From the NCBI GenBank assembly GCA_030655775.1, contig JAUSPI010000022.1:1-45796 (forward strand): 45,796 nucleotides of DNA, given 5' to 3'. A model generated the notes under the pieces. That model made no database searches, was not told where the DNA came from, and saw only the letters and a list, made by a program, of their open reading frames with translations. Numbering within the stretch: position 1 is the first letter of the stretch; each line of letters begins with the position of its first letter. Below, one piece after another: positions 17,322 to 24,323 of this stretch. The position numbers and the translations under genes were made by a program. The stretch comes from Syntrophales bacterium. GTDB taxonomy: Bacteria; Desulfobacterota; Syntrophia; Syntrophales; JADFWA01.

Positions 17322-17885
17322 TTATTCTTTAACACGGGTGACATACTCCCCTGTACGCGTATCAACCCTTATTTTTTCTCCTTCCTCGATAAACGGAGGC
17401 GCCTGTAGCTGATAATCTGTTTCCAGGACAACAGGTTTGGTATTTCCCGATACTGAATCACCCTTAACCCACGGATCGGCCTTGACGACGGTAAGATCGA
17501 CAAAATTAGGGATGGTAATTCCGATCGGTTTCCCCCCGAAAAAGAGGGTTTCTACCTCAAGGTTATCAATAAGGAAACTTCTGGCATCCCCCACCTGTTC
17601 GGTAGTCAGAAAAATCTGTTCATAATTTTCCACATCCATAAAGCAATATTTGTCCTCCTCGGCGTACAGGTACTGCATCTTTTTCTCCTCCAGATCGGCA
17701 GGCTGGAAGGTATCCGCCGAGCGAAAGCTTCGATCAAGCTGAGTCCCTTTTATCATGTTACGGAGCTTACACTTATATACAGGCTGTCCCTTGCCCGGCT
17801 TGAGGAAAGAAAAATCAACAATATTGTAAGGTTCGCCATCAATTTGAATCTTTAAACCCTTCTTTAAATCACTGGCACTATACAT
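17322..17885 (-). CDS. efp: Translation elongation factor P
   Basis: The 187-residue protein has the three-domain EF-P layout. The loop FLKPGKGQPVYKCKLRN carries Lys32, the position usually modified, and the family C-terminal pattern GDSVSGNTKPV...VDTRTGEYVTRV is present. EF-P rescues ribosomes stalled at polyproline. No modification enzyme is encoded in the window. The gene is divergent from the aromatic operon, with about 200 bp between efp and the leader peptide. Confidence 0.97.
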   Translation of the reverse strand: MYSASDLKKGLKIQIDGEPYNIVDFSFLKPGKGQPVYKCKLRNMIKGTQLDRSFRSADTFQPADLEEKKMQYLYAEEDKYCFMDVENYEQIFLTTEQVGDARSFLIDNLEVETLFFGGKPIGITIPNFVDLTVVKADPWVKGDSVSGNTKPVVLETDYQLQAPPFIEEGEKIRVDTRTGEYVTRVKE

Positions 17886-18038: not shown

Positions 18039-18068
18039 TTGACATCGGTATAAAGTTATGGTTTTAGT
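18039..18068 (+). promoter_or_regulatory. Probable promoter of the aromatic amino acid operon
   Basis: TTGACA at 18039-18044 is a consensus -35 box. A weaker -10 (TTTTAG or TTTAGT) follows at 17-18 bp spacing near 18062-18068. The leader peptide starts about 36 bp later. Confidence 0.55.
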
Positions 18069-18103
18069 AACTCCAATAATTAAGAGGAGTTTTTCAGGTC
18101 ATA

Positions 18104-18202
18104 ATGGACAGACAAAAAATCAATGCAAACACAAATTTTAACGGCTGGTTTAGTTATTATTACTATTTTGCATTGGTCTGCCCATTGATCAGGAGGTCCT
18201 AA
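18104..18202 (+). CDS. Attenuator leader peptide rich in Trp, Phe and Tyr
   Basis: A 32-codon ORF (ATG 18104, TAA 18200) begins MDRQKINANT and contains the run WFSYYYYF at codons 15-22, that is one Trp, two Phe and four Tyr in eight codons. An AGGAG sits 14 nt upstream of the ATG. The peptide precedes a DAHP synthase operon and is followed by tandem hairpins, so ribosome stalling at aromatic codons should control read-through. The codons lie in the loop of a strong mRNA stem: CAATGCAAA (18120-18128) pairs perfectly with TTTGCATTG, and flanking GGACAGAC pairs with GTCTGCCC at 7 of 8 positions. Confidence 0.85.
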   Translation: MDRQKINANTNFNGWFSYYYYFALVCPLIRRS

Positions 18203-18221
18203 AGTAAACTAAAAAGACATT

Positions 18222-18306
18222 CAGGCCATGGGTAGATCGAACGATTCTACACCATGGTTTTTTTGTTTTCAGGCCATGGTAGCGAATTTTACCATGGCCT
18301 TTTTTT
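18222..18306 (+). terminator. Attenuator: tandem hairpins with terminal U-run
   Basis: Four mutually complementary segments occur. CCATGGGTAGA (from 18225) pairs with TCTACACCATGG, followed by seven T residues. AGGCCATGGTA (18271-18281) pairs with TACCATGGCCT (18290-18300), followed by a second T-run to 18306. The middle segments, ACCATGG near 18251 and CCATGGT near 18274, can pair with each other instead, which would break the final terminator. This is the terminator/antiterminator arrangement of amino acid attenuators. Confidence 0.85.
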
Positions 18307-18330: not shown

Positions 18331-19350
18331 ATGATTATCGTAATGAAAAGAAATGCAACGAAGGCACAGATTGATCATGTTATGAAGTGGGTTGAGTCGG
18401 TAGGTTACAAGTCACATCCCTCCTATGGTGTTGAACGGACAATCATAGGTGTAGTTGGAGACGACAGGGACAAAGCACATTTAAAACAAGCTGAATCCCT
18501 GTCAGGTGTGGAAAATACAATGCCAATCCTGAAACCATATAAACTGGCAAGCCGTGAAGCAAAAGAAGGAAACACGACTATCCGAATAAAAGACATTGAA
18601 ATCGGCGGGCCGCAATTTATCGTCATGGCCGGTCCCTGTTCAATCGAAAGCGAAGAACAGCTGATGGAAAGCGCCTACATTGTCAAAAAGGGAGGTGGCG
18701 ACATACTCAGAGGAGGAGCATTCAAGCCAAGAACCTCTCCGTACAGTTTCCAGGGAATGGAAGAAGAGGGCCTGAAGCTTTTAAAAAAGGCCGGTGAGGC
18801 GGTTGATATTCCCGTCATCACCGAGGTACTCAACACATCTGATGTGGATCTGGTAGAAGAATATGCCGACATCCTGCAGATCGGGGCACGAAATGTACAG
18901 AACTTTGCTCTCCTCAAAAAGGTAGGAGGCGCCGGCAAACCGGTAATGCTGAAGCGGGGATTAATGACTACTATCGAAGAACTCCTGATGTCAGCAGAAT
19001 ACATCATTTCTTCGGGAAATGACAATGTCATACTTTGCGAGCGGGGTATCCGTACATTTGAAACAGCAACTCGAAATACCCTTGACATCAGTGCGGTGCC
19101 TGTTTTGAAAGAGTTGACCCATCTTCCTGTTATCGTTGATCCTTCTCACGCAGCCGGTCACTGGAAATACATTATCCCATTGACACGGGCCGCCGTGGCC
19201 GTGGGAGCAGACGGAGTCATGGTTGAAGTTCATCCGGAACCTGAAAAGGCTTTTTCGGACGGGATGCAGTCGCTCAAACCGGCAAAGTTTTATCAACTGA
19301 TGGAGGAAGTAAAAATCCTCGAAAAAACAATGCGAGAGATATACAGGTGA
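18331..19350 (+). CDS. aroF: 3-deoxy-7-phosphoheptulonate synthase (DAHP synthase)
   Basis: The 339-residue class I enzyme has an N-terminal ferredoxin-like regulatory domain (about residues 1-70) and a TIM barrel with [40 protein letters not shown] and [11 protein letters not shown]. It condenses phosphoenolpyruvate and erythrose 4-phosphate, the first step of the shikimate pathway. The N-terminal domain type is associated with tyrosine or phenylalanine feedback control in related enzymes. ATG 18331 follows a good AGGAGG site. It is the first structural gene after the aromatic attenuator, fitting control of pathway entry. Confidence 0.97.
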
Positions 19351-19354
19351 TACA

Positions 19355-20449
19355 ATGAATAAAATAAAAGTAAATCTTGATAGAAAAATATCAGCTTCAT
19401 ATGAGATCTGCATAGGCCATAACATTGGTGATCGCATCGAGATGATAATTGCCAAAAATAACTGTGCTTCCCGATATGTCGTTGTTACAGACTCCAACGT
19501 ATCTGCTCTGCACGGAGAAAGGTTTTTAACAACACTCAAATCAATGGGGCTTACTGTAGATATGATAGAAATCCCTGAGGGAGAGACCTCAAAAAATATC
19601 AATACCGTTCTTGATATCACCAAAAAGCTGATAAAAATGGGTATTGACAGGAAATCGGCTCTGATCGCACTGGGCGGCGGTGTGGTAGGTGATGTCGTCG
19701 GGTTTGTTGCATCCATATACATGAGGGGCATTCCATACTACCAGATCCCAACCACTCTTCTGGCCCAGGTGGACAGCAGCATAGGCGGAAAGACAGCAAT
19801 AGACCTGCCCGAGGGGAAAAATCTGCTGGGAACGTTCTACCAGCCCAAGGAGGTCTTCATCGATCTGTCGTTTTTGGATACATTGCCGTCCCGTGAATTC
19901 AAAAACGGCATGGCGGAGATTATCAAATATGGAATAATTGAAGATACTGAACTGTTCAGCCTGCTGGAAAGCGAGGCGAAGGCAATCATGGACAGGGATA
20001 TGGCGATCCTTTCGTCAATCATCGGAAAATCATGTAGAATAAAAAAACGCATTATCGAAATCGATGAGAAAGACAACGGGCTCCGCCGTATTCTTAACTT
20101 TGGCCATACGATCGGCCATGCGATCGAAGCGCAGTCGGATTACTCGATTTCCCATGGAGATGGAGTATCAATCGGCATGATTGCTGCGGCCAGAATATCC
20201 GAAAAGTTAAAACACCTGTCCGGGCAGGACAGGGAGAAGATAGAAAACCTGATAACGACCTACGATCTTCCCTGCCGCATACCCCGGTCTATCGGAACAG
20301 AGGGAATCGTGTCACAATTAAGGGTTGACAAAAAGAAAGAAGGTGAAACCGTTAAATTTGTATTACTGAAAAAACTCGGCATGCCCTTTGTCAACGGCGG
20401 GGTGTCGGAAGCGGTAATTGAGGAAACAATCAGAGAATTGAAAGGTTAG
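19355..20449 (+). CDS. aroB: 3-dehydroquinate synthase
   Basis: The 364-residue NAD-dependent enzyme shows ALGGGVVGDVVGFVAS, PTTLLAQVDSSIGGKTAID, NGMAEIIKYG and LNFGHTIGHAIE, covering the NAD site and the zinc ligands (Glu and His residues). It cyclises DAHP to 3-dehydroquinate, pathway step two. It starts 4 bp after aroF. Length is normal and all motifs are intact. Confidence 0.98.
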   Translation: MNKIKVNLDRKISASYEICIGHNIGDRIEMIIAKNNCASRYVVVTDSNVSALHGERFLTTLKSMGLTVDMIEIPEGETSKNINTVLDITKKLIKMGIDRKSALIALGGGVVGDVVGFVASIYMRGIPYYQIPTTLLAQVDSSIGGKTAIDLPEGKNLLGTFYQPKEVFIDLSFLDTLPSREFKNGMAEIIKYGIIEDTELFSLLESEAKAIMDRDMAILSSIIGKSCRIKKRIIEIDEKDNGLRRILNFGHTIGHAIEAQSDYSISHGDGVSIGMIAAARISEKLKHLSGQDREKIENLITTYDLPCRIPRSIGTEGIVSQLRVDKKKEGETVKFVLLKKLGMPFVNGGVSEAVIEETIRELKG

Positions 20450-20462
20450 AGGGCTCTTTTAA

Positions 20463-21551
20463 ATGAAAGAAACTTCTTTAAAAAAACTCAGAAATAAATT
20501 GCAGGAAAAGGATAAAACCATCATCAAGCTCCTCAACGAGAGGGCAGACATATCCATTGAAGTGGGAAAGATAAAAAATGAACAGGGTTTGGATATTTAC
20601 GACCCCTTACAAGAAAACAAAGTTAACAATTATCTATCAGAGCTGAATGAGGGGCCGCTGCCGGATGATGCCCTGAAAAACATCTTCAGGGAAATTATAT
20701 CCGCCTCCCGTGCCATGCAGGCCCCGACAACAGTGGCATACTTCGGGCCTGAGGCGTCATTCACGCACCTGGCCGCTCAGTCGCATTTTGGGAAAAGCGT
20801 CAACTTTCTCCCTCAATCGACTATTGCTGATGTCTTCGACGAAGTAGAAATGGAGAGGATCGATTACGGCGTCGTGCCTGCAGAAAATTCTTCAGAGGGC
20901 TCCGTCAATATTACTATGGACAGGTTAATCTCAACCCCTTTGAATATTCGTGCCGAGATTTTCCTCAGGATTAATCATTTTCTTATCTCTACACGTAAAG
21001 AAATAGATGGCATAAAGAGGGTTTACTCTCATCCGCAGGCCCTTGCCCAGTGCCAGCACTGGCTGCGTAAAAACCTGCTTCACTGTTCCCTCTGTGAGGT
21101 GGAAAGTACCTCGGCAGCCACCCAGAGGGTCCTGGAAGACAAAGAGGGTGCCGCTATCGGAAGCAATCTCGCCGCATCCACCTATGGTCTTACGATCATC
21201 GCAGAGGGTATTGAAGACAGTTCGTCGAATACAACACGATTTCTAATAATCGGGAAGGGCAAAAATGAACCATCGGGAAAAGATAAAACCTCTATACTTT
21301 TCGGAACACCCCATGCGCCGGGCGCTCTGCATGATGCCCTGGAACCTTTTGCCAGGGAACATATCAATCTTGTTAAGATTGAATCCCATCCGGTGAAGGA
21401 CAGAATGTGGGAGTATCTGTTCTTTGTAGACTTTGACGGACATCTGGAAGATGATAAGATAAAGAAGTGCCTTAAAGACCTGAGGGAACGGGCATCTTTT
21501 GTCAAGATGCTCGGTTCGTATCCACGAGGGGAGGTAACGACTCAGTCATGA
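20463..21551 (+). CDS. pheA: Bifunctional chorismate mutase/prephenate dehydratase
   Basis: The 362-residue protein joins an AroQ-type chorismate mutase (about residues 1-85, with LLNERADISIEVGKIK), a prephenate dehydratase domain (from TVAYFGPEASFTHLAA, with VPAENSSEGSVN, SHPQALAQC and NTTRFLIIG) and a C-terminal ACT domain (PGALHDALEPFAREHINLVK, with ESHP). It converts chorismate to phenylpyruvate, and the ACT domain is the usual site of phenylalanine feedback inhibition. Its stop overlaps the aroD start by 4 bp. Its presence makes phenylalanine an operon-specific end product, matching the Phe codons in the leader peptide. Confidence 0.97.
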   Translation: MKETSLKKLRNKLQEKDKTIIKLLNERADISIEVGKIKNEQGLDIYDPLQENKVNNYLSELNEGPLPDDALKNIFREIISASRAMQAPTTVAYFGPEASFTHLAAQSHFGKSVNFLPQSTIADVFDEVEMERIDYGVVPAENSSEGSVNITMDRLISTPLNIRAEIFLRINHFLISTRKEIDGIKRVYSHPQALAQCQHWLRKNLLHCSLCEVESTSAATQRVLEDKEGAAIGSNLAASTYGLTIIAEGIEDSSSNTTRFLIIGKGKNEPSGKDKTSILFGTPHAPGALHDALEPFAREHINLVKIESHPVKDRMWEYLFFVDFDGHLEDDKIKKCLKDLRERASFVKMLGSYPRGEVTTQS

Positions 21552-22225
21552 TCTGCATTCCAATTATTGCCGCGACCAATGAAGAGGCATTACTGAAGAT
21601 GAAAAAAAGTGCTCTTCTGGCCGATGTTATAGAACTGAGGGCTGATTATATCAGGGATATATCGCTCGGCGAACTGATAGGTGCCAAAGAAGGAAAGCTC
21701 CTGATAACCAACAGAAAAATGGACGAGGGGGGACGATTCGAAGGCAGTGAAAGGGAAAGAGTCGCCCTGCTGAAAGAGGCTGTAGAGCTTGGCGCTGAAT
21801 ATATTGACATTGAATTAAGTACGGAAGATGCATTGATAGAAGAATTGTTGCTGAAAATACGGGGCAATGATAATCGGACAAAATTGATTATTTCTCATCA
21901 CGATTTCAATAAAACACCACCGGAAAGCGAATTAAAAAAACTGTTCGATGAGTGCCTCGGAGCCGGTGCCGATATCGTAAAGATCGTTACTTATGCCAAC
22001 TCTGTGGAAGATAATCTCAGGGTTTTAAATCTTATTCCCTATGCTAAAGGGGGAAATAAGGAAATAATTGCCTTCTGCATGGGCAATTCAGGGCGGATCA
22101 GCAGGGCTGCGGCACCTCTTCTCGGCTCTTATCTCAGCTTTGCGTCTCTGGAAAGGGGAGATGAATCAGTCCCGGGTCAAATGACCGCCAGTGAAATGAA
22201 GGAGATTTTAAGGATTTTAAGATGA
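21548..22225 (+). CDS. aroD: Type I 3-dehydroquinate dehydratase
   Basis: The 225-residue TIM-barrel enzyme has IELRADYI, the catalytic His in IISHHDFNKTP and the Schiff-base Lys in DIVKIVTYA, with SFASLERGDESVPGQM near the end. It removes water from dehydroquinate to give dehydroshikimate. Start and stop overlap its neighbours (ATGA at both ends), indicating translational coupling. Confidence 0.97.
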   Translation: MICIPIIAATNEEALLKMKKSALLADVIELRADYIRDISLGELIGAKEGKLLITNRKMDEGGRFEGSERERVALLKEAVELGAEYIDIELSTEDALIEELLLKIRGNDNRTKLIISHHDFNKTPPESELKKLFDECLGAGADIVKIVTYANSVEDNLRVLNLIPYAKGGNKEIIAFCMGNSGRISRAAAPLLGSYLSFASLERGDESVPGQMTASEMKEILRILR

Positions 22226-23022
22226 AAATATTTGCCCTTTTCGGAAATCCGACAGGACACAGTCTTTCTCCACTGATGCACAATGCCGCCTATTCAAAAA
22301 TGGGGATCGATGCCCATTATGTCTCTTTTTGTGTGGATGACATAGAAAGCGCTGTCAGGGGAATCCGGGGATCAAATATCTGCGGGGCCAGTATCACAAT
22401 CCCGTTTAAATCCACTGTAATGAAATGCTTAGATGCAGTAGATGATAGTGCGCTCAAAATCGGGGCTGTAAATACTGTCTTAAACCAGAACGGAAGATTG
22501 ACGGGCAATAATACCGACTGGATGGGGCTCACTATCGCTCTTAAAGAAAAAATGGAAATTGAGGGGAAAACCTTTGTCATTCTGGGTGCCGGGGGCACTG
22601 CGCGATCCGCAGTATATGCCGTACAAAAGGAGGGAGGAACCCCTATCATCCTGAACAGGACAGCAGAAAAGGGCGGTGAGCTGGCCGCTGAGTTTGGCTG
22701 CAAGTCTTATCATATAGATAATATAGAAAAGATCAGGGCGGACTGCCTGATCAATACCACACCGGTGGGTATGAACCCGGATACCAAAAAATCACTTGTC
22801 GGGAGCATTGTACTGACACGCTTCAGCCATGTGATGGATGTTATCTATAACCCCCTCAGGACAAAGCTTATGAGGAATGCTGAAAAGGCGGGCTGTACGG
22901 TGCTTTCCGGTCTTGATATGTTTGTCCATCAGGGGGCGGAACAAATAAAAATCTGGACAGGGATGGAACCCCCGAGGGAGTTGATGAGGCAAATCGTTCT
23001 TGAAAAACTTAAAACCTTTTAG
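22222..23022 (+). CDS. aroE: Shikimate dehydrogenase
   Basis: The 266-residue enzyme has GNPTGHSLSPLMHNAAY (shikimate binding), GASITIPFKSTV with the catalytic Lys, NNTDWMGL and the NADPH-binding GAGGTARSAVYA. It reduces dehydroshikimate to shikimate. ATG 22222 overlaps the aroD stop. No aroK (shikimate kinase) or aroC follows in the window; those steps must be encoded elsewhere. Confidence 0.97.
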   Translation: MKIFALFGNPTGHSLSPLMHNAAYSKMGIDAHYVSFCVDDIESAVRGIRGSNICGASITIPFKSTVMKCLDAVDDSALKIGAVNTVLNQNGRLTGNNTDWMGLTIALKEKMEIEGKTFVILGAGGTARSAVYAVQKEGGTPIILNRTAEKGGELAAEFGCKSYHIDNIEKIRADCLINTTPVGMNPDTKKSLVGSIVLTRFSHVMDVIYNPLRTKLMRNAEKAGCTVLSGLDMFVHQGAEQIKIWTGMEPPRELMRQIVLEKLKTF

Positions 23023-23066: not shown

Positions 23067-24323
23067 ATGGAAATTAAGCCAATCAAAAACCTGGATGCGG
23101 AAGTAGTAATCCCCGGCTCAAAGAGCTACACCCAGAGGGCACTTATCATAGCATCACTCGCCCATGGAAAATCTTTTCTGCGGAACTATCTGATATCCGA
23201 TGACACGGAATATTTGACCGAAGGACTCCGTTCTTTAGGCTCAGAAATCCTGAAAACCGGCGAAGATATCATCGTAACCGGAACCGGCGGGAATATAACC
23301 AATCCGGGAAGGGAAATTTACCTTGGCAACAACGGTACCGCCACGAGGTTTCTCACCAGCATTGTATCCCTGGGAAAAGGAGAGTTTGTCATTAGCGGAG
23401 ACAGCCGCCTCTGCGAAAGACCGATTAAACCACTCCTTGATGCCTTGAGCGGACTGGGAGTTGACGCGCGCAGCAAAAACAAAAATGGCTGTCCTCCTGT
23501 CATCATAAATGCAAACGGTATCAAAGGCGGCAGCGTAACCTTTACCAATGTGGATAGCAGCCAGTATATCTCATCCGTCCTGATATGCTCCCCATTTGCC
23601 AAAACGGATATAGAAATAAAACTGAAGGGAAGCAAGGTCTCCCTCCCCTATGTCGATATGACGATTGAGACGATGAAGCAATTCGGTGTGGAGGTTGTCA
23701 GGAAAAATGAAGATCACTATATCATAAAAAACAATCAGCAATATATTGGTCATAGATACATGGTAGAGGGAGACGTCTCCAATGCCTCCTATTTCTTTCT
23801 GGCTGCTGCTCTGTGCAGGGGCAATGTAAAGGTTATGAATATCAACCCCGGAACCCTTCAGGGGGATATCGGTCTCCTTGATATCATGGAAACGCTCGGT
23901 ATCTCCGTAATAAGGGGGGATGACTGGGTGAAGGTCATAGGCAAAGAAATGAATAGCGGGGAATATGTCTTCGATATGGGGGATATGCCCGATGTGGTGC
24001 CGACGCTTGCAGTGCTGGCAGCAATAAGACCGGGACGAACCGTCATAAAAAACGTTTCACATCTCCGAGTAAAGGAGAGCGACCGGATAGCAGCAGTGGT
24101 TACCGAATTGGTAAGGACCGGTATCAGAGCTGAAGAGACGGATGACGGACTGATTATTGACGGAGGAATGCCCCATGGTGCTGAGATAGAAACCTACAAC
24201 GACCACAGGATAGCGATGAGCTTCGCCATGCTCGGCCTCGCTATTCCGGGCATAAAGATTAAAGACAGAGACTGCGTCAACAAATCCTTCCCCCTTTTCT
24301 GGGATGAACTGGAAAAACTCTAA
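23067..24323 (+). CDS. aroA: 5-enolpyruvylshikimate-3-phosphate synthase
   Basis: The 418-residue enzyme has GSKSYTQRALI, LGNNGTATRFLTS, SRLCERPIKPLLDAL, DMPDVVPTLAVLAA and LRVKESDRIAAV, the motif set of EPSP synthase. It transfers enolpyruvate from PEP to shikimate 3-phosphate. The sequence around GNNGTATR differs from the GNAGTAMR of class I enzymes, so sensitivity to glyphosate cannot be assumed. It is the last gene of the operon, 44 bp after aroE, and is followed by a GC-rich hairpin. Confidence 0.97.
   Translation: MEIKPIKNLDAEVVIPGSKSYTQRALIIASLAHGKSFLRNYLISDDTEYLTEGLRSLGSEILKTGEDIIVTGTGGNITNPGREIYLGNNGTATRFLTSIVSLGKGEFVISGDSRLCERPIKPLLDALSGLGVDARSKNKNGCPPVIINANGIKGGSVTFTNVDSSQYISSVLICSPFAKTDIEIKLKGSKVSLPYVDMTIETMKQFGVEVVRKNEDHYIIKNNQQYIGHRYMVEGDVSNASYFFLAAALCRGNVKVMNINPGTLQGDIGLLDIMETLGISVIRGDDWVKVIGKEMNSGEYVFDMGDMPDVVPTLAVLAAIRPGRTVIKNVSHLRVKESDRIAAVVTELVRTGIRAEETDDGLIIDGGMPHGAEIETYNDHRIAMSFAMLGLAIPGIKIKDRDCVNKSFPLFWDELEKL

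Follow-up and report, generated by a model that had tools for sequence, protein, structure and literature searches.

A predicted ribosome-mediated attenuator with Trp, Phe and Tyr control codons upstream of a shikimate operon in Syntrophales

The window, a stretch of 45,796 nucleotides comprising one contig (G000:C22) of a Syntrophales bacterium, carries the shikimate trunk genes in the order aroF-aroB-pheA-aroD-aroE-aroA, and NCBIfam profile matches bear out the operon as it had been read in the original prediction. The leader described here sits between the divergent efp gene and aroF, and directly upstream of aroF it combines a short open reading frame rich in aromatic codons with two hairpins that each end in a U-run (Table 1). 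The closest relatives of this aroF are found in Syntrophales/Syntrophaceae assemblies. At the far end of the window, a CRISPR array of 11 repeats (Rfam CRISPR-DR7) occupies positions 5-765 of the minus strand.

Table 1. Coordinates of the leader elements and neighbouring genes in the window
Feature	Position	Strand	Basis
efp, divergent from aroF	17322..17885	-	window sequence
TTGACA, probable -35 element of the leader promoter	18039..18044	+	position conserved in relatives
AAGAGGAG, possible ribosome-binding site of the leader ORF (spacing 14 nt, long)	18082..18089	+	sequence
Leader ORF MDRQKINANTNFNGWFSYYYYFALVCPLIRRS, 32 codons	18104..18202	+	window sequence; frame open in relatives
Segment 1, holds the leader start codon, pairs with segment 2	18104..18113	+	pairing across 64 rows
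Inner 9-bp stem CAATGCAAA/TTTGCATTG	18121..18129 with 18167..18175	+	perfect in the window
Control codons W F S Y Y Y Y F (W15 F16 S17 Y18-21 F22)	18146..18169	+	W, F and Y together in 79/86 relatives
Segment 2, antiterminator 5' strand TTGGTCTGCCCAT	18173..18185	+	pairing, covariation
AGGAGG, Shine-Dalgarno-like hexamer at the leader ORF end	18191..18196	+	SD-like pentamer in relatives
Terminator T1: hairpin 18225-18258, U-run 18258-18264 (T7)	18225..18264	+	folding; covariation
Segment 3, antiterminator 3' strand, overlaps T1 5' arm and loop	18228..18240	+	pairing, covariation
Terminator T2: hairpin 18272-18299, U-run 18300-18306 (T7)	18272..18306	+	folding; covariation
aroF, DAHP synthase (type I beta)	18331..19350	+	NCBIfam NF006421, TIGR01361
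aroB, 3-dehydroquinate synthase	19355..20449	+	TIGR01357
pheA, chorismate mutase/prephenate dehydratase	20463..21551	+	NF008865 and AroQ-type domain matches
aroD, type I dehydroquinate dehydratase	21548..22225	+	TIGR01093
aroE, shikimate dehydrogenase	22222..23022	+	TIGR00507
aroA, EPSP synthase	23067..24323	+	TIGR01356

The 32-codon leader ORF and its aromatic run were found where they had been predicted. Taken in the window alone, the run is unusual and not extreme, since, when this upstream region of the window was dinucleotide-shuffled 2,000 times, 10 shuffles gave an ORF with 7 aromatic codons in 10 and none exceeded 7; it is conservation across relatives that decides against chance. Of 90 distinct sequences upstream of closely related aroF genes, 86 carry a run of aromatic codons in frame immediately ahead of the segment 2 strand; the leader ORF is thus conserved upstream of aroF, a check that had been proposed with the prediction. 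In these relatives the run ends 2-3 codons before a near-invariant RNA strand, GGTCTGCCC, and the frame is open over the last 16 codons before segment 2 in 85 of the 86 loci, with stops in the other two frames in 34 and 49 loci. The aromatic fraction is likewise specific to the leader frame (0.48, compared to 0.13 and 0.16 in the other frames). Counting back from segment 2, codons -3 to -7 encode an aromatic residue in 66-94% of cases and codon -2 in none (0%), with Tyr and Phe mostly at -3 to -7 and Trp mostly at -8 and -10. On average, the 86 leaders contain 1.1 Trp, 2.7 Phe and 3.8 Tyr codons, and Trp is missing from six of them. Because the order of W, F and Y within the run is largely free, the leader would appear to read amino acid supply rather than to present a peptide motif. 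The leader is absent from a few aroF loci (L025/L071, L080, L099 and L104) and disrupted in two others (L085 and L111). Loci L025 and L071 have lost the leader ORF and retained a T1-like hairpin.

Upstream of the leader, TTGAC recurs at a near-constant distance in 84 of 86 aroF loci, as compared to 7.1 expected by shuffling, which indicates that the leader is very probably transcribed together with the operon. A transcription start downstream of 18202, named at the outset as a finding that would speak against attenuation, is made unlikely by this conserved upstream element. No clear -10 element was recognised, and a simple promoter consensus scan of the window did not list the 18039 site. At the other end of the leader ORF, 55 of 86 relatives have an SD-like pentamer in the 36 nt that follow segment 2 (10 expected), and in the window no start codon lies at a suitable distance from AGGAGG. 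A terminating ribosome may be held there over segment 2.

Both terminators are conserved as structures. Among 64 aligned aroF loci, 89.2% of cells are paired in T1 and 95.6% in T2, with both sides changed in 7 of 12 and 6 of 10 pairs, respectively; together they hold 88 double-change cells, compared to 28.3 +/- 5.9 in shuffles (reached in 0/500). The original prediction described two mutually exclusive hairpins with U-runs. The two hairpins and their U-runs are present, but T1 and T2 do not overlap and both appear in the minimum-energy fold, so they were rejected as alternatives to each other and are best read as tandem terminators. What excludes T1 is instead the antiterminator formed by segments 2 and 3. 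In the same 64 loci, this 2:3 pairing is retained in 89.2% of cells, with 16 double-change cells against 8.1 +/- 2.2 in shuffles (2/500). Covariation of the stems, also proposed beforehand as a check, is thus strong for T1 and T2 and moderate for the antiterminator, where it is modest in the aroF set because segment 2 barely varies. In L035, segment 2 reads ATTCTGCCCAT and segment 3 reads ATGGGTAGAAT, and both partners are altered in two pairs lying beyond the T1 stem.

Segment 1 pairs with segment 2 (18104-18112 with 18177-18185) in 82.8% of cells across the 64 rows, with a covariation score reached by 1 of 500 shuffles. The pairing contains an A18108-C18181 mismatch in the window, and segment 1 pairs poorly in relatives L023, L063 and L089. 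Segment 4 can pair with segment 5 in a ladder that would disarm T2; this pairing holds in 94.8% of cells, and covariation on the aligned aroF loci did not rise above shuffles. Among aroF relatives, the duplex energies of a locus's own partners beat those of swapped partners for 1:2, 2:3, 3:4, 4:5 and 5:6, while for the control combinations 1:4, 2:5 and 3:6 own partners were no better than swapped. The inner 9-bp stem fared differently. The control codons had been placed in the loop of this stem, which is indeed perfect in the window, but Phe codon 22 lies in its 3' arm, and the stem is paired in just 56.8% of cells across 64 relatives, as opposed to 83% for the outer pairing. The stem was consequently rejected as the element that couples translation to termination, a role it had tentatively been given in view of the gap of about 55 nt between the control codons and the first terminator arm. 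That gap is no obstacle, as the antiterminator strand starts 2-3 codons past the run.

Cognate control codons, an intrinsic terminator, an antiterminator exclusive with that terminator and a 1:2 stem are all found at this locus, and the conserved leader ORFs and covarying stems support the ribosome-stalling attenuator that was originally proposed. From this comparative sequence evidence we consider it highly likely that the leader controls transcription of the shikimate trunk operon by ribosome-mediated attenuation, with Trp, Phe and Tyr supply pooled into one input. With ample charged tRNA for all three amino acids, the ribosome would clear the run and reach the stop codon; segment 2 would then be unavailable, being either base-paired to segment 1 or masked by the ribosome, and T1 would form with T2 as a backup. 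A shortage of any one of the three would stall the ribosome inside the run, directly ahead of segment 2, leaving that strand free of segment 1, whose start codon the next ribosome can cover. Segment 2 would then pair with segment 3 before segment 4 is made, such that T1 is prevented and RNA polymerase reads on. As the start codon lies within segment 1, it may be a queued ribosome that keeps this segment from pairing.

A static folding model is consistent with parts of this scheme. In the ensemble before T1 is complete, 2:3 pairing stands at 0.30 without a ribosome; stalling at Y20 or Y21 raises it to 0.74-0.97, and covering the start codon with a ribosome to ∼0.94. When only a stall at W15-Y18 is imposed it stays at 0.30, compared to 0.94 with a second ribosome over the start codon. 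Once segment 4 exists, T1 forms at equilibrium in all modelled ribosome states. Switching must consequently be kinetic, a race between the two structures; equilibrium folding by itself does not discriminate the ribosome states or demonstrate switching. Kinetic treatments of attenuation have been published (PMC1183508), and there the outcome is likewise a race.

To look beyond aroF, a covariance model, R1, was built from segment 2 to T1 and T2, excluding the control codons, and searched in 247 genomes of the phylum plus the home genome. The search favours elements resembling the one before aroF, and its matches in 124 of the 247 genomes are not a prevalence figure, since generic GCC(A/G)TGGC terminators score too. 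An aromatic leader was found at 68 of 75 distinct model sites inspected, and 66 of these 68 also have a classified aromatic-related gene. Within the home genome, the mixed leader of aroF (C22) is accompanied by Trp-rich leaders before trpE (C73, NWWWYL), before a TrpB-like gene (trpB2; C241, FYWWWQ) and directly upstream of iorA, the indolepyruvate ferredoxin oxidoreductase alpha gene (L150, C154, FWWWQWIY). A Phe leader, FFSFFSFF, precedes a Peripla_BP_6 ABC binding protein (L146 900-2442, C77) and suggests an aromatic amino acid as the substrate of that protein. A second DAHP synthase, 54% identical (L113 4700-5218, G000:C274), follows the leader MRTLTGNQNYFWCWWLNNALKEWAVGI (NYFWCWW) and a terminator; this leader, which the model missed and which was found by hand, is apparently directed to Trp, judging by its codons. 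Elsewhere, Tyr leaders (YYYYGY) lie upstream of similar ABC binding proteins (L142, L145 and L174) and Phe-rich leaders upstream of the phenylacetate-CoA ligase PaaK (L160, L177 and L180), and in Desulfobacterota an aminotransferase has a Phe-rich leader and ADTH synthase and type I alpha DAHP synthase have mixed aromatic leaders. The Trp fraction of aromatic codons is 0.5-1.0 before Trp-related genes versus 0-0.4 before the others (Mann-Whitney p = 2e-10, for loci that are not phylogenetically independent). As the codons are absent from the search model, their match to the downstream gene is independent evidence that they are read.

The antiterminator also changes in step across gene classes. 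In the aminotransferase leaders segment 2 is replaced by GGCTCACCC, matching GGGTGAGCC in T1, and in the TrpB-like leaders by ATTTGTCC, matched by GGACAAAT or GGGCAAAT. The mean 2:3 energy across classes is -22.6 kcal/mol, as compared to -17.4 +/- 0.4 kcal/mol for swapped partners (0/100), a mean that is weakened by the wrong automatic choice of the T1 arm in several loci (e.g. L116, L120, L140, L177 and L181). We mildly favour the view that one ancestral scaffold, with a GGTCTGCCC-like segment 2, a GCC(A/G)TGGG-type T1 and a tandem T2, has been reused across Desulfobacterota for aromatic biosynthesis, transport, transamination and aryl-acid genes by exchange of the control codons alone, giving an aromatic regulon in which leader ribosomes take the place of TyrR/TrpR-like repressors or T-boxes. 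At L151, a leucine-rich leader (LLLLCLLSL) and a similar terminator were observed upstream of leuA. The scaffold may thus also serve amino acids other than aromatic ones.

The main competing account accepts the attenuator and holds that it responds mainly to Tyr and Phe, the Trp codon being too far upstream to count. The position profile given above favours this account, as does the folding model, in which, without a second ribosome, only stalls at Y20-F22 free segment 2. A Trp-rich leader moreover precedes the second DAHP synthase of this genome, and in C. glutamicum the aroR leader (Phe-Tyr-Phe) is described as answering Phe and not Tyr (PMC11802643), such that the presence of a codon is no proof of a response. 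Against it stands the retention of Trp in nearly all relatives, as a useless rare codon would probably be lost. We therefore regard a Tyr- and Phe-only response as somewhat unlikely, and pooling of all three amino acids as the better reading.

Accounts that dispense with codon reading altogether are far less probable. A nascent-peptide arrest leader of the SecM/TnaC type, where stalling depends on the sequence of the emerging peptide, could explain why the C-terminal VCPxLRR is strongly conserved in the aroF set. However, the nonamer GGTCTGCCC is read as VCP, GLP or RSA, all three frames, in different related leaders, which shows that it is conserved as RNA and not as peptide, and the order of the run is free; on the strength of the three frames peptide arrest was rejected, and we give it very little credence. 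It is similarly improbable that a T-box, riboswitch or RNA-binding protein acts on T1 and T2 independently of the leader. Tandem terminators could serve any sensor, but the aromatic codons are frame-specific and track the downstream gene, and in the Rfam search no leader family, T-box or riboswitch matched at the gathering threshold, with Trp_leader, Phe_leader and T-box absent among matches up to E = 10. The least credible account is that T1 and T2 are ordinary insulating terminators next to an incidental aromatic ORF. While GCC(A/G)TGGC terminators are common in these genomes and some model matches are leaderless (L147 and L173), the frame-specific aromatic enrichment, the coevolution of segments 2 and 3 and the promoter upstream of the leader all argue against it.

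Read as a pooled attenuator, the leader would let syntrophic bacteria, which are little studied, gauge their overall stock of aromatic amino acids where the shikimate pathway begins. The related leaders would form a natural series, with Trp, Phe, Tyr or mixed control codons set in one RNA scaffold, permitting direct tests of how codon identity and position affect the response. The leader codons also suggest functions for downstream genes: Phe and Tyr as the respective substrates of two types of ABC binding protein, and a link to Trp for the indolepyruvate oxidoreductase.

The leader shares much with the trp, his and pheA attenuators of E. coli and Salmonella (for trp and phe, RF00513 Trp_leader and RF01859 Phe_leader), including a leader ORF with control codons, the 1:2, 2:3 and 3:4 logic, a U-run terminator and an upstream promoter. 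Unlike them, it has codons for three amino acids rather than one, its start codon within segment 1, its control codons between segments 1 and 2, and a second terminator. Leaders that respond to several amino acids are known from ilvGMEDA (Ile/Val/Leu) and thrABC (Thr/Ile), which likewise bring several end products of a shared pathway to one leader, in other pathways and with other RNA sequences. Functionally, the closest precedent comes from C. glutamicum, whose aroR leader is likewise a leader peptide with aromatic codons before a DAHP synthase gene, aroF, for which a response to Phe and not Tyr is reported (Neshat et al. 2014 via PMC11802643; PMC4046766). That system is actinobacterial, its motif as reported there has no Trp codon, and the likeness observed is one of codons and gene position. 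In the old delta-proteobacteria, a putative attenuator was listed in 2005 before the D. vulgaris aroA'-aroB'-pheA-aroF-tyrA-trp supraoperon (Merino database, Table 7, PMC1173090), likewise a predicted terminator/antiterminator before an aromatic trunk operon, and ADTH synthase genes also carry the present module; in its published listing neither a leader peptide nor control codons are given for that attenuator, nor is it connected with further genes. A description of a three-aromatic leader, tandem terminators or a shared scaffold was not found in the literature searched, which left most subscription journals outside. The kind of regulation is already known, and it is the pooled input of three amino acids at the trunk, together with an architecture of tandem terminators and a start codon in segment 1, that apparently distinguishes this leader from those described.
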